Assembly: GCA_947449765.1 (NCBI GenBank)
Contig: CANFSP010000001.1
Span: forward strand, 512,128-576,127
Direction: 5' to 3'
DNA from: Actinomycetota bacterium
GTDB lineage: Bacteria > Actinomycetota > Actinomycetes > Actinomycetales > Microbacteriaceae
Length of the DNA stretch: 64,000 nt
Of the stretch, positions 37,819-56,023 are shown in pieces (positions within the stretch are counted from its first letter, which is position 1; every line of letters begins with the position of its first letter). A program made the translations under genes and the position numbers. Below the pieces are notes generated by a model. The model saw only the letters and a program-made list of their open reading frames with translations. It made no database searches and was not told the DNA's origin.

Positions 37819-39537
37819 CTATGAGGGTCGCGAAAGGTTGAAAATCCTCTGACGCAAGGTTGGATTCCAAACATAGACATAAGTTCCACGAATTCCTCGA
37901 GTCAACAGCACTCGGTAAATGTTTTTCACGTATTCGAGTAGGTCATCGTCTGAGTAGGTGAGACCGAGGCGCGGGTTATTTTCTTTGCCTTTGGTGTCGA
38001 AGTAGCTGTCGCGATTGAAGACGAGGCGCCCGCTAGACGCATCGAAACCGAGGTCCGGCCCTATGACAACTCCCGCGTAGTTCAAGTCGTAGCCTTGCAC
38101 CGTGTGGATTGAACCGACCTCGTTCACCGAGTTGGGTGAATTGATCCAGTCCACCGGCGTTTGGTTCCATTGCAACTCGACGCCTTCGATTTCGATGTCG
38201 GTGGCAGTCTTGTCATTGCGGCTCGCCCACGGCCAGGCGTAGCCGGCGACGAGTCGCGAGAGTCCAACGGCGGCATCCTTCTCGAGAATCGCCTCGCGCA
38301 TCTCAGCGAAACTCTCGAAAATGCGAAAGTCGTAGTCACCAAAATCAAGCGCGTCGACCGGCTCAAGGTTGATGAGTTTGCGCACGAAGTCGATGTAGTC
38401 ATTTCCGCCAGTGACCCGCATCTGTGAGGCGAGGCGAAAGTGGATGTTCTGAGCCCGGCTCTCGGTGAGCAAATCCTCGAGTTTCTCGATCGGCAAGTCG
38501 CCTGGCCGAATGCTTTGTGCTGTGTCGATGAGGAGCAGCTGGTGGCGGCTAGCCGCAGCGACCCAGTCGAGCTGAGTCCACGAGGATTCGTCATCGCCAA
38601 ACATGGCCAAATTGTTCTCGGTGAACTTCTTGTTTTGAGCGGCAGACGGTTGGTTCGCGCGCTGTCCGAGTCGATGCGCCTCGTCGACGATGAGAAGGTC
38701 GAACTCGTTACGCGTATGCAGGTCGAATGGACTGATCACCATGTTTTTATCGAGCCCCGGGGTTCGCGCGAAAACCTTCTGCACCGTCTTTCGCAGGGAC
38801 TGCTGAGGGATGACGAGTCCCACCCTCGGTTGCCCGAGCATCTCGCGATACCCCGGCTGGAAGAAGTCGGCGAACAGAGAGTCGCTCTCAAGAGCATCCT
38901 CAGGATTGCTTTTGGCGATGTCGATGAGCAGCTTCACCAAGTAGATTGCGACAATCGTTTTGCCCGTTCCCGGATCACCCTGCACAACCATCGGGGCTGC
39001 AGCAGGCGTCGACCACGAGTCAAACAGTTTCTCGAGAATCGCTTCGACCGCTACTGCCTGGTCACTATTTAGTGCCTTGTACGGGGAGTACTTAAACAGG
39101 TTGCTGTTGACAATATCCGGGATGCTCCTTGTGAGCACCCCTTCTTTGAACAGCTGGTCAAATATCCCGTCGAAGTCTTTGCGGTACCGGTCGCGTTCGA
39201 AATAGTTGGCGTCGGTAATCCCGTGATTGCCGTTGATGACCTCGTATTTTTCGTCAGCGGCAAGATACCGAATGAGGTGCGATTCGAGGTCGAGGCAGAC
39301 GGATTTGTTGAACTCGTCGTTCACAATCACGCGAACATGCTTGAGGCCTTGCTTCGCGGACGATTCGAGGTGCTGTTGCATCCTCACGCCCGCGTTTGTG
39401 GTCTCGCCAATGTAGATGAGTCGCTCGTTTTCGATCGTGTAGACGACGGGCCAGTTCGCGTGAAGCGGGTCGGCTTCAGACCACACCTTGACCGCGCCCT
39501 TGTCGAACGGTAAATGCTCGATCCTAAAGTCGGTCAT
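37819..39537 (-). CDS. GIY-YIG / DUF2075 P-loop protein (572 aa)
   Basis: An N-terminal GIY-YIG-like nuclease domain (VVYTIENERLIYIGETTNAG, residues 31-50) is fused to a DUF2075 superfamily-1 helicase-like ATPase. Walker A is GDPGTGKT (187-194) and Walker B is LLIVDEAHRLG (281-291); SIHTVQGYDLNYAGVVIGPD and VLLTRGIRGTYVY are late helicase motifs. Nuclease plus ATPase suggests DNA or RNA processing in defence. The ATG at 39537 overlaps the end of the MazG-like gene by 14 bp, so they are co-translated. GC is lower than the backbone. Confidence 0.86.
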   Translation of the reverse strand: MTDFRIEHLPFDKGAVKVWSEADPLHANWPVVYTIENERLIYIGETTNAGVRMQQHLESSAKQGLKHVRVIVNDEFNKSVCLDLESHLIRYLAADEKYEVINGNHGITDANYFERDRYRKDFDGIFDQLFKEGVLTRSIPDIVNSNLFKYSPYKALNSDQAVAVEAILEKLFDSWSTPAAAPMVVQGDPGTGKTIVAIYLVKLLIDIAKSNPEDALESDSLFADFFQPGYREMLGQPRVGLVIPQQSLRKTVQKVFARTPGLDKNMVISPFDLHTRNEFDLLIVDEAHRLGQRANQPSAAQNKKFTENNLAMFGDDESSWTQLDWVAAASRHQLLLIDTAQSIRPGDLPIEKLEDLLTESRAQNIHFRLASQMRVTGGNDYIDFVRKLINLEPVDALDFGDYDFRIFESFAEMREAILEKDAAVGLSRLVAGYAWPWASRNDKTATDIEIEGVELQWNQTPVDWINSPNSVNEVGSIHTVQGYDLNYAGVVIGPDLGFDASSGRLVFNRDSYFDTKGKENNPRLGLTYSDDDLLEYVKNIYRVLLTRGIRGTYVYVWNPTLRQRIFNLSRPS

Positions 39538-39853
39538 ATTTGGTGCTCTTTCCGCGAGCCTTGTCAGTCGGGTACTTCGCGCGGGTTTGTTCAAGTTTGG
39601 TGAGGATGAGCTGTTCTGGGCTTTCGCCGAGCTTGTCGGCGAGAAGGTAGCAGTAAGTGAGAACGTCTGCGAGTTCTCCTTTTATTGCTTCCTGGTTTAC
39701 CTCGGTGACCTCATCACTCCACTGGAAGCACTCGAGCAATTCGGCCGCTTCAATGCTGATGCTCTTGGCGAGGTTGGTGGGGGTGTGAAATTGTGACCAA
39801 TCGCGTTCGGCGACGAATATGCGCAGGCGTTCTATTGCCTCGTTTGTCCCCAT
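39524..39853 (-). CDS. MazG-like nucleotide pyrophosphohydrolase (109 aa)
   Basis: An all-alpha NTP pyrophosphatase with the metal site E-x-x-E...E-x-x-D in SIEAAELLECFQW and KGELADVLTYCYLLADKLGE, flanked by RDWSQFHTPTNLAKS. This size matches the dCTPase/MazG-like branch (COG1694). It would hydrolyse (d)NTPs to monophosphates. It is the first gene of a two-gene operon with the GIY-YIG/DUF2075 ATPase and overlaps it, which suggests a joint role, for instance sensing or depleting nucleotides during infection (inference). Confidence 0.88.
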   Translation of the reverse strand: MGTNEAIERLRIFVAERDWSQFHTPTNLAKSISIEAAELLECFQWSDEVTEVNQEAIKGELADVLTYCYLLADKLGESPEQLILTKLEQTRAKYPTDKARGKSTKYDRL

Positions 39854-39908: not shown

Positions 39909-41156
39909 ATGACGTTTTCTGTGGCGGTGGCCGGGGCAAGTGGGTATGCCGGGGGTGAGCTGTTGCGCATCCTCAGTGGGCATGCCGAGTTTGAGGTGCG
40001 CACCGTCACCGCGCACACCAACGCGGGTGCTGCGCTCGCCGAGTTGCACCCGCACCTGCGCTCGCTCGCGCACCTAACTCTCGCCGAGACCACGCCCGCG
40101 ACCCTCGCCGGACACGACGTGGTGTTCCTGGCGCTGCCGCACGGGGCATCCGGCGCGATCACGGCCCAGCTGCCGAATGACGTGCTCGTCATCGACTGCG
40201 GCGCCGACCACCGGCTCGACAAACCCGCCGACTGGGCCGCCTACTACGGCGGCGAGTATTACGGGGCGTGGACGTATGGCATGCCGGAGCTGCTGGTTTC
40301 GCCGATTTCGACAAGCTCAATCACCACATCGAAACAGCGGGATGCCCTCGCCACAGCCACCCGCATCGCCGCACCCGGCTGCAACGCCTCGGCGGTGACG
40401 CTGGCGCTCGCGCCGGCCGTGGCATCCGGGCTGGTTGAGCCCACCGACCTCAGCGCTGTCTTGGCGGTCGGCCCTTCGGGGGCCGGAAAATCCTTGCGCG
40501 TCGATCTGCTCGGTGCCGAACTCATGGGCTCGGCCAACCCGTACGCGGTTGGGGGAGTTCACCGGCACACGCCCGAGATCGTGCAGAACCTGCGCAAGGG
40601 GATGGGTCTCGATACGTCGGCTGGCGCCGACTACTCGACCGGCGCGAAATCGTTGATTGAGCCTGTCGAAATCGGTGGGCTCTCGACAAGCTCGACCGGC
40701 GGGCAATCGTTGATTGAGCCTGTCGAAATCAGCGAGGTCTCGACAAGCTCGACCGACGGGGGCTCGACCGGCGAAAGCTCGACCGACGCGGCCGTAACCA
40801 TCTCGATGACACCAGTGCTCGTACCGATGGCCCGCGGCATCCTCGCCACGTGCAGTGCCACGCTCAAGCCGGGCGTGACCTTGGCCGACGTGCGCGCGGC
40901 CTACGAGGCGGCGTATGGCGACGAGCAGTTTGTGCAGCTGTTGCCGCAGGGGTCGTTCCCGCGCACGGCTGACACGCTCGGCGCGAACACGTGCCTGATC
41001 GGCCTGACCATTGACCCGAACGTGGGGCGCCTCGTGGTGGTGAGCGCGCTCGACAACCTCGTCAAGGGAACCGCCGGTGCCGCCGTGCAGTGCGCCAACA
41101 TCGCGCTCGGACTGCCCGAGGGGATGGGCCTGAGCGTCGACGGGGTTGCGCCTTAG
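39909..41156 (+). CDS. argC: N-acetyl-gamma-glutamyl-phosphate reductase with repeat insertions
   Basis: Third step of arginine synthesis. The NADP fold is [40 protein letters not shown], the catalytic Cys158 in [22 protein letters not shown] and [11 protein letters not shown] follow. At 415 aa it is about 70 longer than usual. The excess comes from dispersed repeats read in frame: [10 protein letters not shown] near residue 135 (antisense copy) and two 57-bp units near 245-295 ([19 protein letters not shown] and its copy). The core motifs are intact, so it is probably functional. Promoter predicts leaderless expression. Confidence 0.93.
40304..40325 (-). repeat. Dispersed repeat copy inside argC (reverse orientation)
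   Basis: The minus strand reads GGTGATTGAGCTTGTCGAAA followed by TC, the same core as the copies after argF. It is translated in frame as ISTSSIT. Confidence 0.8.
40649..40787 (+). repeat. Two 57-bp repeat units inside argC
   Basis: Units start at 40652 and 40709 with GTTGATTGAGCCTGTCGAAA, each followed by an inverted copy (TCTCGACAAGCTCGACC), so each unit is a head-to-head pair. The 57-bp period keeps the reading frame. More CTCGACC fragments follow to 40787. Confidence 0.85.
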
Positions 41157-41255
41157 CTCTCGCTATTAAGTCTGCGAGGTTGCGCCGTAGCGCCTGCAGT
41201 CAAGCCCGCGCGGGTGCTATCTAGAGGGCGCGGTCTGAACGTCCCACAAAGGGTA

Positions 41256-41261
41256 TATATT
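41256..41261 (+). promoter_or_regulatory. -10 hexamer TATATT of the ubiquitin-like operon
   Basis: TATATT ends five bases before ATG 41267. GGGGGAAAAC directly after that ATG is a possible ribosome site for a second ATG at 41279, so both a leaderless and an SD-led start are possible. Confidence 0.45.
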
Positions 41262-41266
41262 CGCTC

Positions 41267-41998
41267 ATGGGGGAAAACATGACGAATAGTCCTGAGTACA
41301 ACGCGCCAGTGACGCGAGCACGGGTGAAGAAGCGTCGCAGTCCGATGCTCACGAGCCTTCTCGCGCTCTTTATCGCATTCGGGGTTCTCACGGTGGGTGG
41401 CGGTGTCACGCTGGGACTGCTCTACAAGGCATCAGTGACCACCGCTGATAAGGAGAGCGACTTGGTGGATCTCGCCTACCAAAGTTGGCTCGACCGCCAA
41501 GCCGAAGAAGAATCCGCGCGCGCTTACGCAGCCGCCTATCTCTCGTGCTACGGCTGGATCTGCGACCTCATCTACGACGGCTATCCGATAAGTGACTACG
41601 CGGATGCCGTTCAAAAAACAAAAATTGCCGAGGCAGTCTACGAGTCCTTTGTCGAGTCGGAGATTGAGTATCGCGCCACAGCGAATCGAATGCAGGTCAT
41701 CTTCTATGCCGGCACCGGTGCTGGGCTTGCCGCGACCATCGGCCTCGGGGTGGCATTCTTTGTCACGCGATCGCGCGTGCGGCGGCGTGATGCTCTCGCG
41801 ATGGGTGCAGGAGCCGGTTCAGGTGCGACAGCCGGCACCATGACAGCCGGCACCATGACAGCCGGCATCATCCCAGCCAGCACCGCGCGTCCGGCAGCAC
41901 CCGCCGAGTGGACGTGTGCCAACTGTGGGCAGGCAAACGCCTCCGGCCTGTTTTGCCTGAACTGTGGCCAGAAACATGGAACCCCGACGAATGCCTGA
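41267..41998 (+). CDS. Membrane zinc-ribbon protein, gene 1 of the Ubl operon (243 aa)
   Basis: A basic N-terminus (RARVKKRRS) is followed by helix 1 (about 28-52), an extracytoplasmic loop with two Cys (SCYGWICDL) that may form a disulfide, and helix 2 (about 146-168). A basic stop RSRVRRRD, a short-repeat linker (AGTMTAGTMTAG) and a C-terminal zinc ribbon (WTCANCGQANASGLFCLNCG) complete it. The zinc ribbon faces the cytoplasm, where the Ubl enzymes act. Its last 8 bp overlap the RING-like gene. Function unknown; a membrane scaffold or substrate is plausible. Confidence 0.78.
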   Translation: MGENMTNSPEYNAPVTRARVKKRRSPMLTSLLALFIAFGVLTVGGGVTLGLLYKASVTTADKESDLVDLAYQSWLDRQAEEESARAYAAAYLSCYGWICDLIYDGYPISDYADAVQKTKIAEAVYESFVESEIEYRATANRMQVIFYAGTGAGLAATIGLGVAFFVTRSRVRRRDALAMGAGAGSGATAGTMTAGTMTAGIIPASTARPAAPAEWTCANCGQANASGLFCLNCGQKHGTPTNA

Positions 41999-42191
41999 AG
42001 TCACCGAAACCGCAGACGAGATCGCCCAGTGCGGCTACTGCACGGGTGATGTCAGTCGCACGGCAGGGCCACGCTGCGATCAGTGCGCGGTGTTCCACCA
42101 CGTTGATTGCTGGAATGAATTCACCGGATGCGTCACGTACGGGTGCTCGAACTCGCCCGACATGAAGAAGTTTCAAGGGGGAGCGATATGA
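41991..42191 (+). CDS. Prokaryotic RING-finger-like protein (66 aa)
   Basis: A compact Cys/His protein with eight candidate zinc ligands in RING-type order: C14-x2-C17, C29-x2-C32, H37, C40, C47 and C52 (QCGYCTGD; RCDQCAVFHHVDCW; GCVTYGC). This matches bacterial RING-like (binuclear treble-clef) proteins described beside E2 and Ubl genes. The expected job is to bring E2 and a target together. The start ATG 41991 overlaps the previous gene (ATGCCTGA); the end overlaps E2 (ATGA). It is easily missed because of size. Confidence 0.82.
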   Translation: MPEVTETADEIAQCGYCTGDVSRTAGPRCDQCAVFHHVDCWNEFTGCVTYGCSNSPDMKKFQGGAI

Positions 42192-42685
42192 CCAGTCCGC
42201 GCCTGCGGCGACTTGAGAGTGACTACGAGCTGTTGCGCTCACGGTTTGACGGGCATCCGAACATTCTCGTTGAGGCGCTCGGCACCGTTCCGCCTGAGAA
42301 TTACCGTGTCACGTACCAGGTGCCCTCGCTGCGTCTCGACCAGTCGAACGTGCCCACGGTCGTGAACACCACCGTGGTCGATTTCGAACTGCCGATGGGC
42401 TACCCGCGCGAGAAGCCACTCGCGGTGTCACACGGCACAGTCTTTCACCCGAACTTCGGCGAGTACGTGTGCATCGCTGACTTTTGGAGCCCGGCGCAGT
42501 CACTGGCCGACATCGTGATTGAGGTGGGTGAGATGCTGCAGTGGCAGAAGTACAACATCCAATCGCCGTTGAACGCCATCGCTGCTGACTGGGCGGTTAA
42601 GCACGCACACGAACTTCCCATCGGACACGCACAACTCGATGCGGGCACCGGCCTCATCGACATTCGCATCACAGGAGAGGCCTAA
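42188..42685 (+). CDS. E2 ubiquitin-conjugating-like enzyme (UBC fold, 165 aa)
   Basis: The UBC fold is recognisable in order: helix RLRRLESDYELLRSRF, strand YRVTYQVPSLRL, VVDFELPMGYPREKP, the HPN motif (87-89), the catalytic Cys95 in FGEYVCIADFWSP, the helix SLADIVIEVGEMLQ and YNIQSPLNAIAADWAVKHA. The HPN-to-Cys distance is shorter than in eukaryotic E2s. It should accept the Ubl from the E1 as a thioester. ATGA overlap with the RING-like gene and 5 bp to the next gene show tight co-expression. Confidence 0.9.
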   Translation: MTSPRLRRLESDYELLRSRFDGHPNILVEALGTVPPENYRVTYQVPSLRLDQSNVPTVVNTTVVDFELPMGYPREKPLAVSHGTVFHPNFGEYVCIADFWSPAQSLADIVIEVGEMLQWQKYNIQSPLNAIAADWAVKHAHELPIGHAQLDAGTGLIDIRITGEA

Positions 42686-42690
42686 TCGTC

Positions 42691-43776
42691 ATGGCAGCAG
42701 AAACTCCCAAGAATCACGATCGTAAGTTCTCGATCGAGATGTCTGACCTCGAGTCGGCCGAAACCGCTCAGGTGGTCGATCACATCAAACGCGCGCAGGA
42801 CGTTCCACTCGTGCGCGAAGTTGGTGTCGAAACCCGCAACTACGGCGCCTTGCTCACCCTGATGTGGCTAAGCCTCGGTGGCATCGCCGGCGGACTGCTC
42901 GCATGGTTGAGCTGGCAGATCATGCCCTCCGACCTCGACTCGTTCGCTTCGAACCTGCTCGCCGCGTTCACCATCGGCGCGTTTGTCGCGTTCGCAATCA
43001 TCATGACGGATGCACTGCAAAGCGGCACCTTCTCCAAAGTGGGTAAGGCGCTACTCATCGGTCTTCCCTCGGCTATCGTCATTTCGCTCATCATGGGTCT
43101 CATCGCCAACGCGATTTATGGCGCCATGGTGGAGAGCCTGTATGAGCGACTCGTCAATCAGGGACTCAGCCCGAACCAGGACGCGTTCTGGACGGCCTTC
43201 GCCAACCAAAACCACCTAAACCGAGGACTCGCCTGGATGCTTATCGGTCTCGGAGCCGGTCTCGCCGTGGGTATCAGCTCGCTCGCCTGGAAGCGCATCC
43301 TCGTTGCTGGAGCAGGTGGCTTGGTCGGCGGATTCCTCGGAGGCTTTTTGTTCGACTTTTTCACCGGCGAAGCAGCCGCTCAGGTCGTGGGTCTCATCGT
43401 GACCGGACTGGCCGTCGGTGTGGGAATCGGCCTCATGGAGCAGGCCACCAAGACGAGCTGGCTTGAAATTGTGCAGGGTGGAATGGCTGGCAAGCAGTTC
43501 ATCCTCTTCAAACCGCAAATCACGCTCGGCTCGTCACCGGCTGCCGATGTCACACTCATCAAAGACCCGGCCATTCCCGGGGTTGCTGCGCGCATCTCGC
43601 GTCGCGGGTCGAGTGTCACCATCACGTCTCTGGAACCGCAGAACCCGATCAGCGTCAACGGGCAAGCGGCACAAACCATTCGCCTTGAAGAAGGTGCCGT
43701 CATCGGGCTCGGGGCAACGCGCGTGCGTTACCGTGAGCGCGGCAAAAACCAAGTCACCGCCGGTGTGAGGAGATAA
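42691..43776 (+). CDS. Polytopic membrane protein with FHA-like domain (361 aa)
   Basis: An N-terminal cytoplasmic 50 residues is followed by about six membrane helices (52-76, 88-107, 118-140, 180-200, 204-222, 230-250) and a C-terminal FHA-like β-domain (about 268-350: KQFILFKPQITLGSSPAADV; NPISVNGQAAQTIRLEEGAV). The usual FHA G-R and S-x-x-H phosphothreonine residues are replaced (GSS; PGVAARI), so phosphopeptide binding is doubtful. It probably anchors the Ubl machinery to the membrane. Confidence 0.82.
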   Translation: MAAETPKNHDRKFSIEMSDLESAETAQVVDHIKRAQDVPLVREVGVETRNYGALLTLMWLSLGGIAGGLLAWLSWQIMPSDLDSFASNLLAAFTIGAFVAFAIIMTDALQSGTFSKVGKALLIGLPSAIVISLIMGLIANAIYGAMVESLYERLVNQGLSPNQDAFWTAFANQNHLNRGLAWMLIGLGAGLAVGISSLAWKRILVAGAGGLVGGFLGGFLFDFFTGEAAAQVVGLIVTGLAVGVGIGLMEQATKTSWLEIVQGGMAGKQFILFKPQITLGSSPAADVTLIKDPAIPGVAARISRRGSSVTITSLEPQNPISVNGQAAQTIRLEEGAVIGLGATRVRYRERGKNQVTAGVRR

Positions 43777-43778
43777 CC

Positions 43779-44048
43779 ATGGCAACAATTTCAGTAACCG
43801 TCACCGATGCCACAGGCAGTCGGCGCGACCAGGTCGACATGCCGGATGACCAGCCGATCATCCGCATTCTTGCTGCCCTCGTGCAGAAGCTCGGACTACC
43901 GCTTGCCGGACCGGACGGGCAGCCCATGTCCTACCGTTTTCACCACGTCGAGTCGCAGTCGCAGTTGCGCGACAACGACACCTTCTCGGCTGCGGGCGTG
44001 AAGAAGGGCGACACCTTGCGCTTAGTTCCCGAAATCACCGCGGGGTAA
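43779..44048 (+). CDS. Ubiquitin-like protein (β-grasp, YukD/EsaB-like, 89 aa)
   Basis: Residues 1-85 fit a β-grasp fold: strand ATISVTVTDATGSRRDQVDM, helix PIIRILAALVQKLGL, strand SYRFHHVES, then TFSAAGVKKGDTLRLVPEI. It resembles YukD/EsaB, but no type VII secretion gene is nearby and E1, E2 and JAMM genes flank it. The chain ends ITAG, so the terminal Gly is exposed without processing and could be adenylated by the E1. AGGAGATAACC lies before the ATG. Confidence 0.9.
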   Translation: MATISVTVTDATGSRRDQVDMPDDQPIIRILAALVQKLGLPLAGPDGQPMSYRFHHVESQSQLRDNDTFSAAGVKKGDTLRLVPEITAG

Positions 44049-44057
44049 TCGCGCCAC

Positions 44058-45194
44058 ATGACAAGCGTTGATCTCGACGAGTCGCGTTACGCGCGTCAGG
44101 AGCTCATCACGTGGTGGGATCAAGCTGCGCTCGCCCGCTCGCGTGTGCTCGTGGTGGGGGCCGGTGCGCTCGGTAACGAGGTGGTCAAAAACCTCACGCT
44201 GGTCGGTGTCGGTCACATCGAAATCGTCGACATGGACACCATCGAGCACACGAATCTCGCACGCTGCGTGTTTTTTCGCGAAGCGCACGAAGGTCAATTT
44301 AAGTCGGATGTTCTCGCCGCGGCCGCTCACGACATGAACCCCGACGTCACCTGCGTGAGTCATCCCGTGGCGGTGCAGCGCTTGGGTGCGGCGTATCTCG
44401 ATCGGTTCGACCTCGTCATCGGCGCGCTCGACAACCGAGAGGCGCGTGTCTGGGTCAACCAGGCGTGCCGCAAGCTGGGCAGGTTCTGGATCGATGGCGC
44501 CATCGAAGGACTGCGCGGATTGGCGCGCATGTTCGCACCCGAGGGTGCCTGCTACGAGTGCACGCTCTCCGAAGCGGACTACAAACAGATGAGCCACCGG
44601 CGCTCCTGCTCACTGCTTGCGCCCGAAGAAATCCTCACCGGAAAGACGCCGACCAACGCGACGACCGCAGGCATCATCGCCGGGGTTCAAGTGCAAGAGG
44701 CGATCAAGTTCCTCACGGGCAATCACGACCTGCTCAGCGTGGTCGGCAAGTGTTGGGTGTTCACCGGCGACTCGATGGAGTCGTATGTCATGGCATACCG
44801 GCCCGACGAGTTCTGCCTGGCGCACGACAGCTACGACGTGATTGTTGACGCGCCACTGGTGACCACGCCGCGGCAAGCCCTCGCGATGGTCTGTGGCGAG
44901 AATGGTGACGTGGATGCGGCTACCACCGCACTCCACTTCGAGGAAGACGTCATCGAGCTCAAGCCGTGTGAGACCTGCGGGGGTCACAGCATCTCGCGGA
45001 CGAGGTCATCCCTTCGTCTCGGTGAGGGTGTCTGCGACACCTGCGGGCAGTCGCGACTGGGCTCCACGTCGAGCCAATGGTCGGTAACGGATGACCGCCT
45101 CGACCTCACCTTTGCCGAGCTCGGTCTCGGACTTCACGATTTCATCACCGTTCGTCAGGGTGCACAGCGCACCCACCTGAAAGTGCAGGCATAA
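44058..45194 (+). CDS. E1-like Ubl-activating enzyme (ThiF/UBA family, 378 aa)
   Basis: Adenylates the Ubl C-terminus and passes it to the E2. The Rossmann nucleotide site is VLVVGAGALGNEVVKNL (G34-G39), followed by IVDMDTIEHTNLARCVFF with the acidic, Asn66 and Arg69 residues of the adenylation site, and IGALDNREARVWVNQ. CYEC (165-168) and C184 in RRSCSLLAPE are the zinc and candidate thioester cysteines. TTAGIIAGVQVQEAIKFLTG closes the domain. The C-terminal part holds a second zinc ribbon (C304/C307, C326/C329). Confidence 0.93.
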   Translation: MTSVDLDESRYARQELITWWDQAALARSRVLVVGAGALGNEVVKNLTLVGVGHIEIVDMDTIEHTNLARCVFFREAHEGQFKSDVLAAAAHDMNPDVTCVSHPVAVQRLGAAYLDRFDLVIGALDNREARVWVNQACRKLGRFWIDGAIEGLRGLARMFAPEGACYECTLSEADYKQMSHRRSCSLLAPEEILTGKTPTNATTAGIIAGVQVQEAIKFLTGNHDLLSVVGKCWVFTGDSMESYVMAYRPDEFCLAHDSYDVIVDAPLVTTPRQALAMVCGENGDVDAATTALHFEEDVIELKPCETCGGHSISRTRSSLRLGEGVCDTCGQSRLGSTSSQWSVTDDRLDLTFAELGLGLHDFITVRQGAQRTHLKVQA

Positions 45195-45196
45195 CC

Positions 45197-46264
45197 ATGG
45201 CAACACGCAAGCCAGTCACGCCGAGCTCGGCCTCGCGCAGGCCGAAGTCGACCGAGAGCTCTCGACGATTCACCGGGCCGACGCTCACCGTTGACCCGAT
45301 CGTGATGAGCGGCATCGAAGAGCACGGATACAGCGACCTTACCAACGAGGTCGGCGGCATGCTCATCGGTAACTTCACCGACGCGGGTGTGGAAATCAGC
45401 GCATTCATTCCTGCGCTCAAGGCTGTGGGCAACCAGGTGTCACTGACGTTTTCGCATGACGTGTGGCAGGACATTTTGGTGCGCGTCGACGAAGACTTTC
45501 CGAATAAGAAAATCGTGGGTTGGTATCACACGCATCCCAGTCACGGAATTTTTCTCTCCGAGTATGACCAGTTCATTCACAAGAACTTCTTTCCCGATGC
45601 GAAGCACGTGGCACTCGTAGTCGACCCGATTGCCGGTCAGCTCGGCTGGTTTGCACTGGCGGCGAACGGTTCAACTCAGGTTTTTGCGAAGCAAAAGACG
45701 GCGCTCGGTCCGCGCGAGCGCGTCGTGATTGCGCCGACTAGCCGACAGCCCGCACGACGCCTGCCTGTAGTGCTCGCGGTAGTCGCGTCGCTGCTCGTCG
45801 GCGGGGGAATCGGATGGGGTGTTGCTGCAGCGATGGCCCCCGCCGATGTGAGTGGCCCGTTCCGCGCGCTTCAGGCTCAGTACGAGGGCTCAGTGCAGAG
45901 CCCAATCTTCACCGTCGTGGTTGCCGAAGGTGACACGTGCGAGTCTCTCGCGGTGCGGTTCTATGCCGATGCTGCCAAGGCAAGCCTCATTCGAACGCTC
46001 AACGGCATTGCTGAGGGCGCTGAACCAGCGGTCGGGCAGAGCATTGCCGTCGCGTTTGTTCCCGGCCTGGGTGTGACCGGCGGTGACGCGGCGGCGACCT
46101 GGCCGGATCTGGCGCCGACCCCCGCTCCGGTGCCTGAGCCGACGCCGGAGCCGACGCCTGAGCCGACGACCCTGCCGACGACGCAAGTGACGCCAGCGGT
46201 CGATGCACCGCTCGACCCGTTGGCCACTCCTGCCGTGGTCGCAGCAGCCGAGGATCCGCGATGA
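45197..46264 (+). CDS. JAMM/MPN deconjugase, membrane-anchored, with LysM-like domain (355 aa)
   Basis: The metalloprotease domain has Glu51 (EVGGMLIGNF) and the H-x-H-P-x6-S-x2-D motif HTHPSHGIFLSEYD (His111, His113, Ser121, Asp124), the complete JAMM zinc site used to remove ubiquitin-like proteins. One membrane helix (about 189-213) follows. Outside it lies a LysM-like segment (IFTVVVAEGDTCESLAVRFY, about 236-282) and a P/T/E-rich stalk. The active site faces the cytoplasm and the tail could reach peptidoglycan. The stop overlaps the next ATG. Confidence 0.92.
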   Translation: MATRKPVTPSSASRRPKSTESSRRFTGPTLTVDPIVMSGIEEHGYSDLTNEVGGMLIGNFTDAGVEISAFIPALKAVGNQVSLTFSHDVWQDILVRVDEDFPNKKIVGWYHTHPSHGIFLSEYDQFIHKNFFPDAKHVALVVDPIAGQLGWFALAANGSTQVFAKQKTALGPRERVVIAPTSRQPARRLPVVLAVVASLLVGGGIGWGVAAAMAPADVSGPFRALQAQYEGSVQSPIFTVVVAEGDTCESLAVRFYADAAKASLIRTLNGIAEGAEPAVGQSIAVAFVPGLGVTGGDAAATWPDLAPTPAPVPEPTPEPTPEPTTLPTTQVTPAVDAPLDPLATPAVVAAAEDPR

Positions 46265-46623
46265 AATTTTGCCCCAACTGCGGCACCCCCCGCCTTGGCA
46301 AATTTTGTGCCGGATGCGGCTTCGCCTTCCCGTTGGATGGTGTGACCGCTGGTGCCACTGCGACCACACCCGCCGCTGCGCCCGGCTTTTCGCCGTATCT
46401 TTCTCCTGCTGAGTCGTCTACTGCTACGCCAGCAATCTCGCAGGCTGGCTCGCCGGCTTATCCGTCAACCGTCCCGTCGGCCTTCCCTTCGACGGATGTG
46501 CACGCAGCGACGGTGTCGCTCTATCCCGGGCTTGTGTATGGTGACGCCTTCGACGCATCTCGGTGTTGCCCGAACTGTGGTCGCGCTTCTGCGCAAGGCG
46601 TGCGCTGCGCGTCGTGCGGGTGA
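46261..46623 (+). CDS. Double zinc-ribbon protein, last gene of the Ubl operon (120 aa)
   Basis: The N-terminal ribbon is KFCPNCGTPRLGKFCAGCG; a disordered A/P/S/T-rich linker of about 70 residues follows; the C-terminal ribbon is CCPNCGRASAQGVRCASCG. No catalytic residue is present. The ATGA overlap with the JAMM gene places it in the operon. It could be a substrate or adaptor, as zinc ribbons open and close the operon. An 8-bp tandem repeat starts 10 bp after its stop. Confidence 0.8.
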   Translation: MKFCPNCGTPRLGKFCAGCGFAFPLDGVTAGATATTPAAAPGFSPYLSPAESSTATPAISQAGSPAYPSTVPSAFPSTDVHAATVSLYPGLVYGDAFDASRCCPNCGRASAQGVRCASCG

Positions 46624-46633
46624 CGGCTTGTTC

Positions 46634-46678
46634 GCAAGCCCGCAAGCCCGCAAGCCCGCAAGCCCGCAAGCCCGCAAG
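46634..46678 (+). repeat. 8-bp tandem repeat (GCAAGCCC, 5.6 copies)
   Basis: Five perfect copies plus a partial copy directly downstream of the Ubl operon, in non-coding DNA. Slippage-prone; no hairpin. Confidence 0.9.
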
Positions 46679-46782
46679 GCGTCCCCGGTTTCATGGCGTT
46701 TTCAGTAATCCACAGATGAACTGTGGCGCCTAAAAACCCGATTTCGAGCCGGCTAAAACCGTTGCATGACGATTACGCCGAC

Positions 46783-46802
46783 TAGTACCATATCTCGTAC
46801 CA
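46783..46802 (+). promoter_or_regulatory. Candidate operator of TA module 1
   Basis: Octamers TAGTACCA (46783) and TCGTACCA (46795), 12 bp apart, 20 bp before the antitoxin ATG. TA module 2 has the equivalent pair CCGTACAA/TCGTACAA, also 12 bp apart. A GTAC core recalls YefM operators. Confidence 0.5.
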
Positions 46803-46822
46803 GTCCCGATTGGACGAGACCG

Positions 46823-47098
46823 ATGAAAGCTCTTACCGCAAGTGAAGCCCGCCGAACGCTGTTCACTCTGATCGAAGAAGTGGTCGAGCTGGAAGAAGAG
46901 ATTTACATCACGTCCCGCAAGGGCACGGCGGTGCTCATCAGCGAGTCGGAGTATCGAGGATTGAAAATTGCCGTTGAGCTCTTCAGGGATCCGGTCGGCG
47001 GTCTGCAGTTGCTCGAGTCGATGAAGCAATCGCGTGAGCGCAATGTCATTGGTCCTATGACAATGGATGAGCTCCGCGAACGCATCGAGGGCATGTGA
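46823..47098 (+). CDS. YefM/Phd-family antitoxin (TA module 1)
   Basis: 91 residues. The N-terminal Phd/YefM fold is MKALTASEARRTLFTLIEEV followed by EEEIYITSRKGTAVLISESE; the C-terminal helix region should neutralise the toxin. ATG 46823 gives the family start; an upstream ATG (46766) would read through the putative operator. The stop overlaps the toxin GTG by four bases. Autorepression together with the toxin is expected. Confidence 0.88.
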   Translation: MKALTASEARRTLFTLIEEVVELEEEIYITSRKGTAVLISESEYRGLKIAVELFRDPVGGLQLLESMKQSRERNVIGPMTMDELRERIEGM

Positions 47099-47361
47099 GA
47101 ATTGAGTTCACTCCGGTGGCCTGGGCTCACCTTCAGGAGTGGTTGGGCGACGACCGCAAGACCTTCGATCGCCTGCTTCGCCTCATCGAAGAAACGTGTC
47201 GCGAACCACGCGGTGGCCTGGGCAAGCCCGAGCGACTCAAACACTTGTCGGATGAGACTTGGTCGAAACGGATCACCCCACGACATCGGATGGTCTACGA
47301 AATTCGCGACGACGTGATCACTTTTACTCAGCTGCGCGGGCACTACTGGTTCGACGGGTAA
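47095..47361 (+). CDS. YoeB/Txe-family mRNA interferase (TA module 1)
   Basis: 88 residues with the YoeB pattern: FTPVAWAHLQEWLGDDRKTF, GLGKPERLKHLSDETWSKRI, and the catalytic region RHRMVYEIRDDVITFTQLRG ending HYWF. YoeB toxins bind the ribosome and cut mRNA in the A site. GTG start inside the antitoxin stop. A close relative is at 49801-50064. Confidence 0.92.
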   Translation: MRIEFTPVAWAHLQEWLGDDRKTFDRLLRLIEETCREPRGGLGKPERLKHLSDETWSKRITPRHRMVYEIRDDVITFTQLRGHYWFDG

Positions 47362-47412
47362 ACCCGGAGCGTGACTGTTCTGAGGCATTCGGCACCGTCG
47401 AGCGGCCGTATT

Positions 47413-47452
47413 TTGTGCCATAATATTTCTTTACTTGTGCCATAATGTTTCT
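47413..47452 (+). promoter_or_regulatory. 18-bp direct repeats over the promoter of the HTH/nucleotidyltransferase pair
   Basis: TTGTGCCATAATATTTCT (47413-47430) and TTGTGCCATAATGTTTCT (47435-47452) differ by one base and are 22 bp apart, two helical turns, so they lie on one DNA face. The second contains a -10 CATAAT (47441-47446) six bases before the GTG start. This is a strong candidate for autoregulation by the HTH protein. Confidence 0.7.
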
Positions 47453-48277
47453 GTGAGAGATTCCATTTCGATTCGTGAGGCGGCTGGTGAGCTGGGCGTC
47501 ACCGAGCGTCGCGTGCGGCAACTCGTGCCGACGGGGAGTCTCACCCGCGATGAGCTGGCGCGTCTGGCACGGCGTGAAACCAAGGTCGGTCGCAAGACGG
47601 CGCGGGATTCACTTCAGGCGCTGGCTGATTTGCTCGATTTTCGTCCCACCAACGATGTTCCCCCGCGCACACTTTCTCGCCTTAAAGGCACGATTCGACT
47701 CGCAGATTCTTATGAGATTGCACAGCTCCTCGCGCCCGTTCGTGATTCTCCCTCAGGTGAGCTTGCTCGCAAAGCTCTGGCATCTGAGAACTGGCTCGAG
47801 CAACGAAAAACCCTGGCTGAATTGGCCAAGCGTCAAGAAGCGTGGGAAGCGCTTCACCCCGACGCCCGAGTTGGTGACACAAGTCGAATTCGCTCCGGTG
47901 CGCGTACCGCATCCGGTCTGGCTCGTGAACTCATCGAGGCTCTGAGTGATTCCGACACCGAGTACATGTTGCGGCACCTTCTTCACGCCACCGCGAACTG
48001 GAGTCACGAGTCCGCGACACAACTTCCCGCGCTGTTTAGGCGCGAACCCCAGCGCGTGCCTCGACCCGAGTGGGATGCGTTCCTGTGTGCCTGCGTCGAA
48101 TGGTCGTGTGCTCAGGTGGGGATCACGCCACCGCGCTGGACGGCACGGAGTCACTGCCAGATCTCGTGGTCACCAATCGCGGTGGGATTCATTCGGCCCG
48201 AAAAAAGACACCCCTTTTTTGAGGAGCGAAACATTGTGATCAGCCGTGATGATGCGCCGCAAGTCAGGGGTTCATGA
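47453..48277 (+). CDS. HTH DNA-binding protein, partner of the nucleotidyltransferase (274 aa)
   Basis: Residues 5-32 (ISIREAAGELGVTERRVRQL) are a clear helix-turn-helix. The remainder is helical and ends in a domain of unknown family (WDAFLCACVEWSCAQ; ISRDDAPQVRGS). The GTG at 47453 is set by the -10 spacing. Its stop overlaps the nucleotidyltransferase ATG (ATGA). The pair has the layout of a toxin-antitoxin or abortive-infection module, with this protein as the DNA-binding antitoxin; that role is inferred from arrangement. Confidence 0.75.
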   Translation: MRDSISIREAAGELGVTERRVRQLVPTGSLTRDELARLARRETKVGRKTARDSLQALADLLDFRPTNDVPPRTLSRLKGTIRLADSYEIAQLLAPVRDSPSGELARKALASENWLEQRKTLAELAKRQEAWEALHPDARVGDTSRIRSGARTASGLARELIEALSDSDTEYMLRHLLHATANWSHESATQLPALFRREPQRVPRPEWDAFLCACVEWSCAQVGITPPRWTARSHCQISWSPIAVGFIRPEKRHPFFEERNIVISRDDAPQVRGS

Positions 48278-48816
48278 TGCTTCATCTTGGAAAACCAGAG
48301 ATTCTTGAGCTCCTTGCCCGCATCGGTGCAGACCTGAGCCGGCGAGGGCTCAGTGCCTCGGTATACATCTTTGGTGGCTCGGCGCTCATCGTTCAAGGGC
48401 TTCGAAATGATGTGACTGTCGACATTGATATGTGGACGCATGATTCGGCAGTCTTAGGTCAAATCGGCTCTCGTTTGCAGCAAGAGTTTGGGTTTGAAAA
48501 TAACCCCGTCGATTCACGCGGACGAGGTTTTGTCTTTGGGCCTGCAATCGACACCGAGGCCGAAGAGATGATCTTTGATTCTCTTGTCGCACGATTCGCG
48601 TCGCCACGAGTGCTGCTCGCGCATAAATTGTCGGCCTTTCGAGCCAAAGATGTTGGCGACATCGTCGAGCTGATGAAACGGCTCGACATTCGATCCGCTG
48701 AGCAGGCTGTGGCGATTGCCCGAGAATATTTCGGTGACGACCATGTTCCGGCCGTTGATTATGAGGGGATGGCCATCGACGTGAGCAACCTGTTGCGCGA
48801 CGTTCAGCAGAGATAG
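48274..48816 (+). CDS. Nucleotidyltransferase-like protein (DUF6036/AbiEii-like)
   Basis: 180 residues with the Pol-β nucleotidyltransferase signature: VYIFGGSALIVQGLRNDVTV (G-G-S) followed by Asp50 and Asp52 in DIDMW, then LLAHKLSAFRAKDVGDIVEL, the K-x6-R-x-K-D pattern of AbiEii/DUF6036 proteins. Relatives act as toxins that add nucleotides to tRNA; this is an inference here. Co-translated with the HTH gene. Confidence 0.82.
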   Translation: MMLHLGKPEILELLARIGADLSRRGLSASVYIFGGSALIVQGLRNDVTVDIDMWTHDSAVLGQIGSRLQQEFGFENNPVDSRGRGFVFGPAIDTEAEEMIFDSLVARFASPRVLLAHKLSAFRAKDVGDIVELMKRLDIRSAEQAVAIAREYFGDDHVPAVDYEGMAIDVSNLLRDVQQR

Positions 48817-48829
48817 ATAGGTTTATCGC

Positions 48830-49363
48830 ATGACTCAGCACCGCTCCCGCCTCTCCCGCACCCTTCTCGCAGCTGGCGCTCTCGCACTCGTGGCGGGTGT
48901 GACGATAGGGCTTTCGGGATGCGCGACCGGGGCTGCCGGTGGCGGCGGTGCGGCATCCTCATCGTCGGCGATCACGGCCGAGGTGCTGGGCGACCTCAAC
49001 GCGTACGCGCCGAACATGGCCCGCCTGGGCAAAACCGAGGCCGACCTACGTGCGCGGTATGAAGCGGTCACCGGGGTCAACTATAAAGATGACGCCACCA
49101 TGCTCGCCGCCGTGCAGGGCATGCTGCCCGACATGGACGCGTACATCGCTGAGCTCGAGGCCGTCGCACCTACGACGACCCCGGTGAAGGATGCGCACGC
49201 CCTGTGCATCGCGGGCTGGAAGAAACAGCGCGAAGCGTTCGGTGTCATGGCGCAGGCGTTGAGCGAGCAGAGCGCCGACCTCGTCACCCAGGCCAACGCG
49301 CTGATGACCGAGGCGAACGGGCTGATGAGTCAGTATCGTGCGGCGCTCGCTGCCATCAAGTAA
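48830..49363 (+). CDS. Lipoprotein (177 aa)
   Basis: The signal sequence RTLLAAGALALVAGVTIG ends in the lipobox LSGC, so the mature protein should be lipid-anchored outside the membrane. The mature part begins with a G/A/S-rich tether and is then helical (DLNAYAPNMARLGKTEADLR; ALMTEANGLMSQYRAALAAI). No family recognised. It follows the nucleotidyltransferase by 13 bp but looks unrelated in function. Confidence 0.82.
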   Translation: MTQHRSRLSRTLLAAGALALVAGVTIGLSGCATGAAGGGGAASSSSAITAEVLGDLNAYAPNMARLGKTEADLRARYEAVTGVNYKDDATMLAAVQGMLPDMDAYIAELEAVAPTTTPVKDAHALCIAGWKKQREAFGVMAQALSEQSADLVTQANALMTEANGLMSQYRAALAAIK

Positions 49364-49479
49364 GGGGTGCCCATCCACCCCGGTTGGTTGTGGCTAACAG
49401 ACTTTCCACAAGGTACTCACGGCCAGTGTGATCGCCTGCTTTTGCGTGAGTAAATAACTCACATGAACCACACACTTAA

Positions 49480-49499
49480 CCGTACAATTACTCGTACAA
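49480..49499 (+). promoter_or_regulatory. Candidate operator of TA module 2
   Basis: CCGTACAA (49480) and TCGTACAA (49492), 12 bp apart, upstream of the second YefM gene, parallel to the pair at 46783-46802. Confidence 0.5.
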
Positions 49500-49516
49500 C
49501 TTACGAGGAGTCACAC

Positions 49517-49804
49517 ATGTACGCCGTTACCGCGAGCGATGCCCGCCAGCGCTTCTTCCCGATCGTCGAAGACATCCTCGAATTGCAAAATATCTACAAG
49601 GTGACCTCTCGCCGTGGCACCATCGTCATGTTGAGCGAGTTCGAGTTCGAGTCGCTTCTCGAAACCATCGAGATTCTTCGCGACCCCGAGATGGCCAAGA
49701 AGCTAGCGCGTGCTCTGGGGTCAGCCAAAGCCGGCGAGCACGCTCGTGTTTTTGACGCGGCTGACTTTCTGCGCGACGACTTTCACGCCAACGAGTCCGA
49801 ATGA
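49517..49804 (+). CDS. YefM/Phd-family antitoxin (TA module 2)
   Basis: 95 residues: MYAVTASDARQRFFPIVEDI and YKVTSRRGTIVMLSEFEFES, similar in plan to the antitoxin at 46823. A good GAGGAG lies six bases before the ATG; a start at 49463 would translate the operator. The C-terminus is helical and charged. Overlaps the toxin by four bases (ATGA). Confidence 0.88.
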   Translation: MYAVTASDARQRFFPIVEDILELQNIYKVTSRRGTIVMLSEFEFESLLETIEILRDPEMAKKLARALGSAKAGEHARVFDAADFLRDDFHANESE

Positions 49805-50064
49805 AAATAGCGTTCCAACCGGACGCCTGGGACGACTACGAATACTGGCGAACCACCGACAAGGTGATGTTCACGCGTTTGCGTCGAGCAATCGCAGACA
49901 TCGTTCGAGACCCCTTCGCCGGATCCGGTTCCCCCAAGCCACTGCGCTACGCAGAAAATCTCTGGGCCAGACGACTCGACCTCAGGCATCGCATCCTGTA
50001 CCGGGTGACAGATGACACTATCGAGTTTCTCTCGATGCGCGGGCACTACTGGTACGACCGGTAA
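49801..50064 (+). CDS. YoeB/Txe-family mRNA interferase (TA module 2)
   Basis: 87 residues: MKIAFQPDAWDDYEYWRTTD, GSPKPLRYAENLWARRLDLR and HRILYRVTDDTIEFLSMRGH ending YWYDR, the complete YoeB catalytic tail. The stop codon TAA is part of the argJ -10 hexamer, so toxin and arginine genes abut without spacing. Confidence 0.93.
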   Translation: MKIAFQPDAWDDYEYWRTTDKVMFTRLRRAIADIVRDPFAGSGSPKPLRYAENLWARRLDLRHRILYRVTDDTIEFLSMRGHYWYDR

Positions 50065-50067
50065 ATT
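50062..50067 (+). promoter_or_regulatory. -10 hexamer TAAATT before argJ
   Basis: TAAATT overlaps the toxin stop codon; seven bases then lead to the argJ ATG. A leaderless mRNA is likely (GAGGGC is too close to the ATG to be a good ribosome site). Confidence 0.5.
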
Positions 50068-50074
50068 TGAGGGC

Positions 50075-51280
50075 ATGACCGTCACCTCGCCCGCTGGATT
50101 CGCCGCCGCCGGAGTCACCTGCGGACTCAAGAAGTCCGGCAACAAAGACCTCGCCATCGTGCAGAACCTCGGGCCGCTCAAGGCCGCCGCCGCGGTGTTC
50201 ACGTCGAACCGCTGTAAGGCGAACCCGATCCTGTGGAGTCAGCAGGTCATCGCCGACGGTGTGGTCGACGCCATCGTGCTGAACTCCGGGGGAGCCAACT
50301 GCTACACCGGACCGCAAGGTTTTCAGGTCACCCACTCAACGGCAGAGGCGGTTGCCGAGGCGCTCGGCACCTCAGCGGGTGACGTACTCGTGTGTTCGAC
50401 CGGGATCATTGGCGAGCAGCTTCCGCTCGAAAAACTGCAGCTCGGCGTGAGCCTGGCTGCGGGGGAGCTCGGCCAGTCGCGGGCGAGTGCGCTCGAAGGC
50501 GGCATGGACGCAGCCGAAGCCATCATGACCACCGACTCAAAGCCGAAGACCGTGGTGATTGCCGGAGGGGGTCAGGGCGAGTCGGTTGAGGCTGAGGCGG
50601 CATCCGCTTATTCCATCGGCGGCATGGCGAAGGGAGCGGGCATGCTCGCACCGGGTCTGGCCACCATGCTCGTGGTGCTGACGACGGATGCGCAGCTCAC
50701 GCCCGCGCAACTGGACACCGCTCTTCGTGCCGCCACCCGCGTGACGTTCGACCGGCTCGATTCGGATGGATGTATGTCCACCAACGATCAGGTCACACTC
50801 ATGGCCAGTGGCGCGAGTGGGGTTGTCCCGGATGTCGCGGAATTCACCGACCGCCTCACCGAAGCGTGTGCTTCGCTGGCGCTGCAATTGCAGGCCGATG
50901 CTGAGGGAGCCTCACACGATATCGCCATCACGGTGCTCAGCGCCGCCAGCGAAGACGACGCCGTGGCGGTCGGCCGCTCCGTCGCTCGCAACAATCTCTT
51001 CAAGGCGGCGATCTTCGGCAACGACGCCAACTGGGGCCGTGTACTGGCCGCGGTCGGAACCACCTCTGCCGCCTTCGACCCCTACAACATCGACGTCTCG
51101 TTCAACGGTGTGCGCGTCTGCCAGGGTGGGCAGCCCGACCAGCCGCGCGACCTCGTCGACCTGAGTCCACGCGCCGTCGACATTGTCATCGATCTCAAGT
51201 CGGGTCCGGCCCAGGCGACCATCTGGACGAACGACCTCACGCACGACTACGTTCACGAGAACAGCGCCTATTCGTCCTAG
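50075..51280 (+). CDS. argJ: Bifunctional glutamate N-acetyltransferase / ornithine acetyltransferase
   Basis: Recycles acetyl groups in arginine synthesis. It autocleaves at Ala-Thr in MLAPGLATMLVVLTTD; the Thr becomes the nucleophile of the β chain. Other signatures: GFAAAGVTCGLKKSGNKDLA, LNSGGANCYTGPQG, CSTGIIGEQLPLEKL, and the late DLTHDYVHENSAYSS terminus. 401 aa, normal. ATG 50075 is chosen by similarity; a frame open to 50012 overlaps the toxin. Confidence 0.96.
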   Translation: MTVTSPAGFAAAGVTCGLKKSGNKDLAIVQNLGPLKAAAAVFTSNRCKANPILWSQQVIADGVVDAIVLNSGGANCYTGPQGFQVTHSTAEAVAEALGTSAGDVLVCSTGIIGEQLPLEKLQLGVSLAAGELGQSRASALEGGMDAAEAIMTTDSKPKTVVIAGGGQGESVEAEAASAYSIGGMAKGAGMLAPGLATMLVVLTTDAQLTPAQLDTALRAATRVTFDRLDSDGCMSTNDQVTLMASGASGVVPDVAEFTDRLTEACASLALQLQADAEGASHDIAITVLSAASEDDAVAVGRSVARNNLFKAAIFGNDANWGRVLAAVGTTSAAFDPYNIDVSFNGVRVCQGGQPDQPRDLVDLSPRAVDIVIDLKSGPAQATIWTNDLTHDYVHENSAYSS

Positions 51281-52668: not shown

Positions 52669-53586
52669 ATGACCGAACTGCGCCCGAGCGACGAGACCGC
52701 CTCGAGTGAAGCGGCCATCAAAGCGGCCACGCTCATCGAATCGCTGCCGTGGCTCAAGCGCTTCAGCGACGAAATCATCGTCGTCAAGTTTGGTGGCAAC
52801 GCGATGGTTAGCGACGAACTTACTCGGGCTTTCGCCGAAGACATGGTCTACCTGCGCACGGTCGGCATCAAGCCCGTCGTCGTGCACGGTGGTGGTCCGC
52901 AGATCAGCGCGATGCTCGAACGCCTCGGTATCGAGTCCGAATTCCGCGGCGGGTACCGCGTCACCACGCCCGAAGCGATGGATGTAGTGCGCATGGTGCT
53001 CACCGGCCAGGTCAGCCGTGAACTGGTGCAAGACATCAACGAGCACGGGCCACTTGCTGCCGCAATCAGTGGCGAAGACGCAGGATTATTCGTCGGCGAA
53101 CGCCGCGGCGTGATCGTCGACGGCGAAGAGGTCGACCTCGGGCTCGTCGGCGATGTGGTCGAGGTCAACCCCGACTCGGTGCTGGCGCAAATCAGTGCGG
53201 GTCGCATCCCGGTGGTTTCCTCCATCGCCCCCGATCGCCACGTGCCCGGTCAATCGCTCAACGTGAACGCCGACGCCGCTGCCGCGTCGCTCGCGGTTGC
53301 CCTCGGTGCCGCGAAACTCGTCATCCTCACCGACGTTGCTGGCCTCTACAGCGACTGGCCGAACACCGACTCACTCGTGTCGCAAATCACAGCGGATGAA
53401 CTGCGCGCCCTCATCCCCACGCTCGAGTCGGGAATGATCCCCAAGATGAACGCCTGTCTCGACGCGGTCGACGGCGGCGTGCCGAAAGCGGCCATCATCG
53501 ACGGTCGGGTGCCGCACTCGATCCTGCTCGAGGTTTTCACACAGACCGGTTCGGGTACTGAGGTCGTGGCTGGGGTCGTCGCCTAG
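52669..53586 (+). CDS. argB: Acetylglutamate kinase
   Basis: Phosphorylates N-acetylglutamate, second step of arginine synthesis. Amino-acid-kinase motifs: [76 protein letters not shown] and [15 protein letters not shown]. The N-terminal helix of the arginine-sensitive form is present ([20 protein letters not shown]), so feedback inhibition by arginine is likely. 305 aa, normal. argD, usually next, is absent. Confidence 0.97.
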
Positions 53587-53616
53587 CAAGTCGCCTGACC
53601 AGGCGCCTAGCTCGCA

Positions 53617-56022: not shown

Positions 56023-56023
56023 G

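Follow-up and report, generated by a model that had tools for sequence, protein, structure and literature searches.

A candidate membrane-anchored system for reversible ubiquitin-like tagging in a Microbacteriaceae genome

Eight genes for predicted ubiquitin-like conjugation

We analysed a 64,000-nucleotide stretch of a small Microbacteriaceae genome (Actinomycetota; GenBank assembly GCA_947449765.1, contig CANFSP010000001.1, positions 512,128 to 576,127), called the window below, whose coordinates are used throughout. An operon at 41267..46623 on the plus strand encodes a ubiquitin-like protein (Ubl) together with enzymes predicted to attach and remove it. The original prediction, made from the sequence alone, had described eight tightly packed genes for such a pathway, with membrane anchoring. 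All eight open reading frames (ORFs) were found where it had placed them, neighbours overlapping by 4-8 bp or separated by gaps of 2-9 bp, and they encode the expected set (TM, transmembrane segment):

41267..41998, +, gene A: two-TM protein (TM 31-49 and 148-166) whose loop of ~98 aa is predicted to lie outside and whose C-terminal zinc ribbon (CxxC...CxxC) is predicted to be cytosolic (hydropathy; zinc ribbon below the Pfam cut-off)
41991..42191, +, gene B: small RING-like protein with 7 Cys and 1 His, likely E3 (Prok-RING_1 below cut-off; ligands invariant)
42188..42685, +, gene C: E2 with predicted UBC fold, HPN 87-89 and Cys95 (Pfam, profile, predicted structure)
42691..43776, +, gene D: protein with six TM whose FHA-type domain at the C-terminus (residues ~259-346) is without the Arg and Ser/His that bind phosphothreonine in canonical sites (Pfam, hydropathy, alignment)
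43779..44048, +, gene E: YukD-family Ubl ending in LRLVPEITAG (Pfam, relatives)
44058..45194, +, gene F: E1 of the ThiF/UBA fold, putative catalytic Cys184, putative Zn ligands C165/C168/C253/H256, C-terminal domain with a zinc ribbon that may be UFD-like (UFD, ubiquitin-fold domain; Pfam, alignment, model)
45197..46264, +, gene G: JAMM isopeptidase (E51, H111, H113, D124) with one TM (191-209), a LysM domain (241-284) and a Pro-rich tail (Pfam, hydropathy, alignment)
46261..46623, +, gene H: pair of zinc ribbons with a Ser/Ala/Pro-rich linker between them (DZR 7e-4, below cut-off; counterpart by position in the relative loci L004, L006, L007 and L008)

For the E2, the original prediction had named HPN and Cys95 in 42188-42685 and had made a UBC fold there its test beforehand. 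The AlphaFold2 (AF2) model of this protein (predicted local distance difference test, pLDDT, 89.1) does show that fold: all 50 rows shown by a Foldseek search with the model were ubiquitin-conjugating enzymes or their complexes (best E 5e-7, query TM-score 0.58-0.65). A protein search returned 419 relatives at E ≤ 1e-3, and among the best 120 of these, the window's own protein counted, HPN-x5-C was present in 118 and HPN-x6-C in the remaining two. Pfam UQ_con, which matched gene C at 6.7e-5, 4 bits short of the cut-off, stood in the precomputed Pfam column for 109 of the 119 other relatives listed. Moreover, a profile of 30 listed proteins found eukaryotic E2s in the PDB (best 9.4e-7), the matches lying mainly in the half that holds the active site. 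Because sequence profile and structure prediction agree, a UBC fold for gene C is supported. PF14461 (Prok-E2_B) had no match anywhere, the control genomes being likewise without one. The RING-like assignment of gene B also held: its binuclear zinc ligands C14, C17, C29, C32, H37, C40, C47 and C52 are invariant in 8/8 aligned rows, Pfam Prok-RING_1 scoring under its cut-off (0.0053), and on this sequence pattern gene B is likely an E3-like RING protein.

The predicted β-grasp Ubl ending in Gly was borne out by a match of gene E to PF08817 (YukD, 1.8e-12), which covers a single domain in an 89-aa protein with a C-terminal Gly (Gly89). Among 104 listed proteins (the window's own and two fragments counted), 88 end in EI[TVM]AG, 15 carry a tail of 1-7 residues past the AG and one is different. 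The last Lys or Arg before the C-terminus is R81, invariant in 16/16 rows, and the tryptic remnant on a target would therefore be LVPEITAG and not the Gly-Ala that had been proposed for mass spectrometry. We also considered a second YukD protein or an EccD in this genome and rejected both, as PF08817 matches once only.

Gene F matched ThiF in Pfam (4.6e-52). The residues singled out beforehand in the E1 and the JAMM protease proved invariant: C184 in 7/7 rows, and E51, H111, H113 and D124 in 5/5. The best one-domain PDB sequence matches of the E1 were SAE2 (4.5e-22) and then UBA3 (1e-19), with MoeB at 3e-14. In NCBIfam the ThiF, UbaA and MoeB profiles scored best, all under their cut-offs, and among the hits shown, which for the E1 were 25 of 29, none of the eight products of the operon reached a family's own cut-off. 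In the E1 model pLDDT is below 50 over most of the Cys184 loop (179-197). Structural matches to SAE2 (9dqb), UBA7, UBA1 and one UBA6 aligned 274-298 residues and reached residues 376-378, only end points being given, with a root-mean-square deviation of 3.4-6.2; MoeB and ThiF aligned over ~200-226 residues, and most SAE2 and UBA3 rows over only ~215-238. BubCD was among the fold matches, and the list held no row for the C-terminal domain alone. On this modelling the C-terminal domain may be UFD-like.

A promoter and terminator scan gave nothing clearly above shuffled sequence (1 vs 0.9 and 7 vs 4.5). Directly 3' of the operon, at 46633-46678, lies a perfect 8-bp tandem repeat (CGCAAGCC, 5.8 copies).

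Predicted membrane anchoring and a probable wall-binding isopeptidase

The original prediction had counted three or four membrane proteins. Hydropathy gave two TM for A, six for D, one for G and none for the other five products; three predicted membrane proteins thus stand and the fourth falls away. Basic residues precede TM1 of A and the TM of G, and this arrangement suggests a cytosolic position for the JAMM domain, for A's zinc ribbon and for D's FHA domain, with LysM on the outside.

Gene D had been described as a six-helix FHA-like protein, and its six TM and its FHA domain were both recovered (Pfam Yop-YscD_cpl 2.7e-11, FHA 3.4e-5); in a profile search of the PDB the best matches were GarA-type FHA domains (3e-4). 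A canonical FHA phosphothreonine site consists of Gly-Arg, Ser-x-x-His and Asn-Gly. At the place expected for Gly-Arg, 5/6 aligned rows have GSSPxADxTLIKD, with one Asn variant; no Ser-x-x-His follows this stretch, and Asn-Gly is retained in 5/6 rows. The phosphopeptide reading of D was dropped, since the binding-site Arg and Ser/His are missing and the FHA domain is degenerate.

Gene G matched JAB (5.8e-9) and, below the cut-off, LysM (0.0018) in Pfam. Its best PDB match was Rpn11 (1e-12); a further match, 6fjv (3e-10), is an archaeal Rpn11-like protein. The counts that follow come from a protein search in which the best 120 of 140 matches were listed and only the 7,991 candidates sharing most words were scored, so they are no census. 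All 53 nearest listed relatives have the HxHP...SxxD motif, and 52/53 have at least one predicted TM. Four relatives were checked singly (L003, L004, L007 and L008), and in each the JAMM domain is followed by one TM and then by the aligned LysM region. Across these 53 relatives and the window's protein, 29/54 matched LysM at E ≤ 0.01 and 25/54 did not. Gene G is likely, on sequence grounds, an isopeptidase tied to a wall-binding domain.

Among the other 67 listed JAMM relatives (P0278-P0344), 63 have a predicted TM, 51 are at least 400 aa long and for two the precomputed Pfam column lists LysM. Judged by these sequences, membrane anchoring in this JAMM type seems to extend beyond the operon's own family. 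P0278-P0344 form a second JAMM class, in which four proteins read by eye run JAMM, TM, coiled-coil-like stretch, TM; one is a named Tepidisphaeraceae (planctomycete) protein, and some lie on megabase-long contigs.

Relatives and genomic setting

The E2 profile was run against GTDB with each species represented by one genome; exact peptide patterns were required, so the eight loci obtained (L002-L009) are a lower bound. A sample of the phylum added a ninth (L022). As far as their contigs reach, the nine loci outside the window follow the order RING-E2-TM/FHA-(protease)-Ubl-E1-JAMM-zinc ribbon-(kinase-like). RING adjoins E2 in 8/8 loci that cover this stretch (L005 begins after it), and D comes after E2 in 8/8 (L022 stops inside E2; in L009 D is a cut N-terminus, read by eye). 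Ubl is present in 7/7, E1 in 7/7, JAMM in 6/6 (cut in L002 and L003) and the zinc ribbon in 4/4 of the loci whose contigs extend that far. The genes thus do occur together in other genomes, as had been anticipated, and because their order recurs there we conclude that the gene set is not a chance one.

Several of the more distant relatives carry additional genes, assigned by Pfam to Trypsin_2, fn3, PASTA and Pkinase. The protease lies between D and Ubl in 5/7 loci and is missing in L002 and L003, as it is in the window; by hydropathy it has two TM, the PASTA protein one, and the kinase-like proteins one membrane region each. The proteases of L004, L005 and L006 are 95-99.6% identical, and these loci were counted as one lineage because they are close kin. 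The three records are titled as metagenome-assembled genomes of Bifidobacterium breve, a label that looks doubtful; they carry the operon with an E2 identity of about 60%. A kinase-like gene comes next after the zinc ribbon in 3/4 loci (L004, L006 and L007); none was found in the ~590 bp past the L008 zinc ribbon or after the window's operon. Kinases are marked by the catalytic motifs VAIK, HRD and DFG. When the L004 protein is aligned to PknB, Gln stands at the VAIK Lys, HRE replaces HRD and the DFG Asp is missing, and the L007 protein, read by eye, has Glu and HGR at motif positions; the kinase-like proteins of the relatives are, by sequence, probably pseudokinases. The original suggestion of a membrane or envelope process is strengthened by the JAMM-TM-LysM arrangement in relatives and by the PASTA, FN3 and TM-bearing protease genes in some of them.

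The family is rare. A single-sequence E2 search hit 1/99 relatives, namely the window's genome, and the E2 profile hit 1/398 genomes of its family and 2/396 genomes of the phylum, the window's own counted in both. As to the survey of Microbacteriaceae that had been called for, within the sampled family the E2 occurs in the window's genome only, though one GTDB locus (L003) is titled Microbacteriaceae. No match was found in the IMG/VR, phage and plasmid collections, and carriage by a phage or plasmid was set aside on that ground.

The operon sits between argC (39909-41156) and argJ (about 50,000-51280; gene names by reading). In two genomes of the same genus the argC-argJ interval is largely filled by other genes, a toxin-antitoxin pair in G001 and one lipoprotein-like gene in G002, and in two other members of the family argC and argJ are ~20 bp apart; A, D, E1 and E2 were not matched in the argC-argJ stretches of these four genomes. 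The interval (41157-50011) looks like an insertion hotspot in the genus. Besides the operon, it holds in the window a Phd/YefM-YoeB toxin-antitoxin pair, a second similar pair, a DUF6036 gene and a lipoprotein-like gene.

Other features of the neighbourhood were seen in passing. At 40634-40788 argC contains an in-frame stretch of ~50 codons, partly a 57-bp tandem repeat, where aligned relatives break off; it looks like a tolerated repeat insertion in an enzyme gene. Upstream, 37819-39853 holds a gene for a GIY-YIG and Schlafen-group-3 helicase protein adjoining a MazG-like gene, possibly a separate defence pair; in G001 and G002 the MazG-like gene likewise stands beside argC, together with the start of the helicase gene. 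At 52669-56974 no argD was recognised between argB and argF, which adjoin in G001 and G002 and leave room for one gene in G003 and G004.

Reading the operon against known systems

Prokaryotic neighbourhoods of Ubl, E1, E2 and JAB genes were described in 2006 (PMC1779556), and complete bacterial Ubl/E1/E2/RING/JAMM operons are mentioned in part of PMC5654768. The same part describes a Caldiarchaeum subterraneum operon (Ub/E1/E2/srfp-RING/Rpn11) with the same five enzymatic parts and an Rpn11-type JAMM; it notes no membrane components there, whereas three are predicted here. The Caldiarchaeum modifier is a close ubiquitin homologue according to a passage of PMC11354881, and the one here is of YukD type. 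Bub and Bil antiphage operons are named in a section of PMC13373217. Bil, as one section of PMC11354881 describes it, has a CEHH motif in BilB and two Ubl domains in BilA; the operon here instead has an HPN-Cys E2 in which the residues at +6, +8 and +13 after Cys95 are S, A and D, one 89-aa Ubl domain, a RING-like protein and membrane proteins. In the Bacillus subtilis type VIIb secretion system (T7SSb), according to the part of PMC9600267 that treats it, YukB has FHA domains that are without phospho-binding residues and that bind the TM pseudokinase YukC, and a weak interaction was seen between YukC and YukD. The operon resembles that trio in its YukD-type Ubl, its FHA domain without phosphothreonine-binding residues and, in relatives only, a TM pseudokinase, and this analogy suggests that the family shares parts with T7SSb; in contrast to T7SSb, the operon has conjugation enzymes instead of WXG100 and an FtsK-type ATPase.

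What is new here is the predicted anchoring to membrane and wall and the type VII secretion parallels, complete bacterial operons of this kind being already in print. Our literature searches, which covered open-licence papers, found none that describes a JAMM linked to the wall or a conjugation platform resembling T7SSb. Burroughs, Iyer and Aravind are said to have proposed YukD-like Ubl conjugation in Mol BioSyst in 2011, with an E1 bearing a C-terminal UFD, an E2, a RING and a JAB in one neighbourhood; YukD-like Ubl, E1, E2, RING and JAB would be common to those predicted prokaryotic operons and to the one here.

We favour, with somewhat more than even confidence, the reading that the operon encodes a membrane-anchored machine for reversible tagging with a YukD-type Ubl that responds to the state of the cell envelope. 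The block of genes is conserved as one unit, the Ubl ends in Gly, and E1, E2 and JAMM keep their catalytic residues. Because of this conservation, and because E1-E2-RING-JAMM pathways are established elsewhere, we regard the chemistry of reversible Ubl conjugation as probable. The role in envelope sensing, which we propose because the JAMM is anchored with LysM and wall-type domains occur in relatives, is an evenly balanced matter. In the pathway we propose, the E1 (F) would adenylate Gly89 of the Ubl (E) and take it onto Cys184, and the Ubl would then pass to Cys95 of an E2 that perhaps docks on the C-terminal domain of the E1. The RING-like protein B would drive transfer to a lysine on a target protein at the membrane's inner face, where the zinc ribbons of A and H, together with D as a six-TM/FHA-type scaffold, would hold the target. 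The JAMM domain of G would take the tag off again and, where the Ubl of a relative has a short tail, would first expose the Gly. Since this domain is joined through one TM to a LysM predicted outside, contact with the wall would gate deconjugation. Proteasome and HslV profiles found no match in the window's genome (98.55% complete) and matched 10/14 control genomes; the tag would therefore signal, route proteins or feed a Clp or FtsH protease, and we discarded degradation of conjugates by a 20S proteasome. A bolder proposal, which we hold with considerable reserve, is that a membrane platform in the style of type VII secretion, with a YukD-type Ubl, a degenerate FHA domain and a TM pseudokinase, has been turned into a ubiquitin-like ligase whose JAMM is gated by wall binding through LysM. 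On that proposal the planctomycete-like JAMM-TM proteins would form another branch of this membrane class.

The main rival, and a serious one, is antiphage defence of the Bub or Bil kind in a membrane-anchored form, which would tag phage or host envelope proteins on infection and thereby block virion assembly, DNA entry or cell survival. The rare and patchy E2 fits it, as do gain in an insertion hotspot adjoining toxin-antitoxin genes and, upstream of argC, the helicase/GIY-YIG and MazG-like genes, which however stand partly beside argC also in the two same-genus genomes without the operon. Characterised bacterial Ubl systems such as CBASS Cap2/3, Bil and Bub are soluble defence modules, and the original prediction had set the operon apart from such types; L004, where a mad1-like helix-turn-helix gene and a PglW/NERD gene (14302-16051) lie ~1-2 kb past the kinase-like gene, blurs that contrast and counts for defence. 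As for Bub itself, no Bub-named model stands among the hits listed by PADLOC 2.0.0 (2023), and the E1 has a fold match to BubCD. Against defence, PADLOC gave E1-E2 models for the E1, JAB models for the JAMM and a chance-level hit (0.51) for H, with nothing for A-E, the E2 included, at E ≤ 1. The lack of matches on phages, plasmids and IMG/VR contigs also speaks against it, and we know of no LysM, PASTA or FN3 domains in Bub or Bil. On this balance we consider defence possible, if rather unlikely.

Two further readings drop the conjugation. The YukD-type Ubl could be a structural subunit of a type VII secretion-like membrane assembly in which E1, E2 and JAMM only regulate assembly or are vestigial. 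The YukD family membership, the degenerate FHA domain of D and the TM kinase-like protein without catalytic motifs make up the same trio as YukD, YukB-FHA and YukC (PMC9600267, in the part cited above), and elsewhere in the genome there are a WXG100 gene, next to an ORF read as GroEL, and an EccC-like ATPase gene, one of two ATPase genes found with TIGR03924 below its cut-off, the other being read as FtsK. But no WXG100 or FtsK/SpoIIIE gene was recognised in the operons (the neighbours in relatives being read by eye and partly by Pfam), and conserved catalytic residues in E2, E1 and JAMM would be needless in a vestigial role, so that we find this reading improbable. Least probable, and by our estimate very much so, is a sulphur-carrier, cofactor or siderophore pathway, with E1 and Ubl as carriers of sulphur and the JAMM processing the carrier. 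Operons of E1, Ubl and JAMM do exist in sulphur metabolism (PMC1779556), and the best NCBIfam scores of the E1 point the same way; yet its best PDB sequence matches are SAE2 and UBA3, and no sulphur-metabolism gene was recognised among the neighbouring ORFs read by eye. A plain sulphur-carrier role was rejected because a UBC-fold E2 with its Cys and a RING-like protein are present.

Under the reading of reversible, envelope-responsive tagging, a genome that gave no proteasome match holds a compact set of E1, HPN-type E2, RING-like protein and Rpn11-like JAMM that is tied to the membrane and probably to the wall. Were the platform indeed derived from type VII secretion, there would be a direct route in bacteria from the state of the peptidoglycan to ubiquitin-like protein tagging. 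If the operon does conjugate, YukD-type Ubls can be true modifiers, which would bear on the origin of type VII secretion and of ubiquitin signalling, and the family would offer a small system for studying the state of the wall and reversible tagging side by side.

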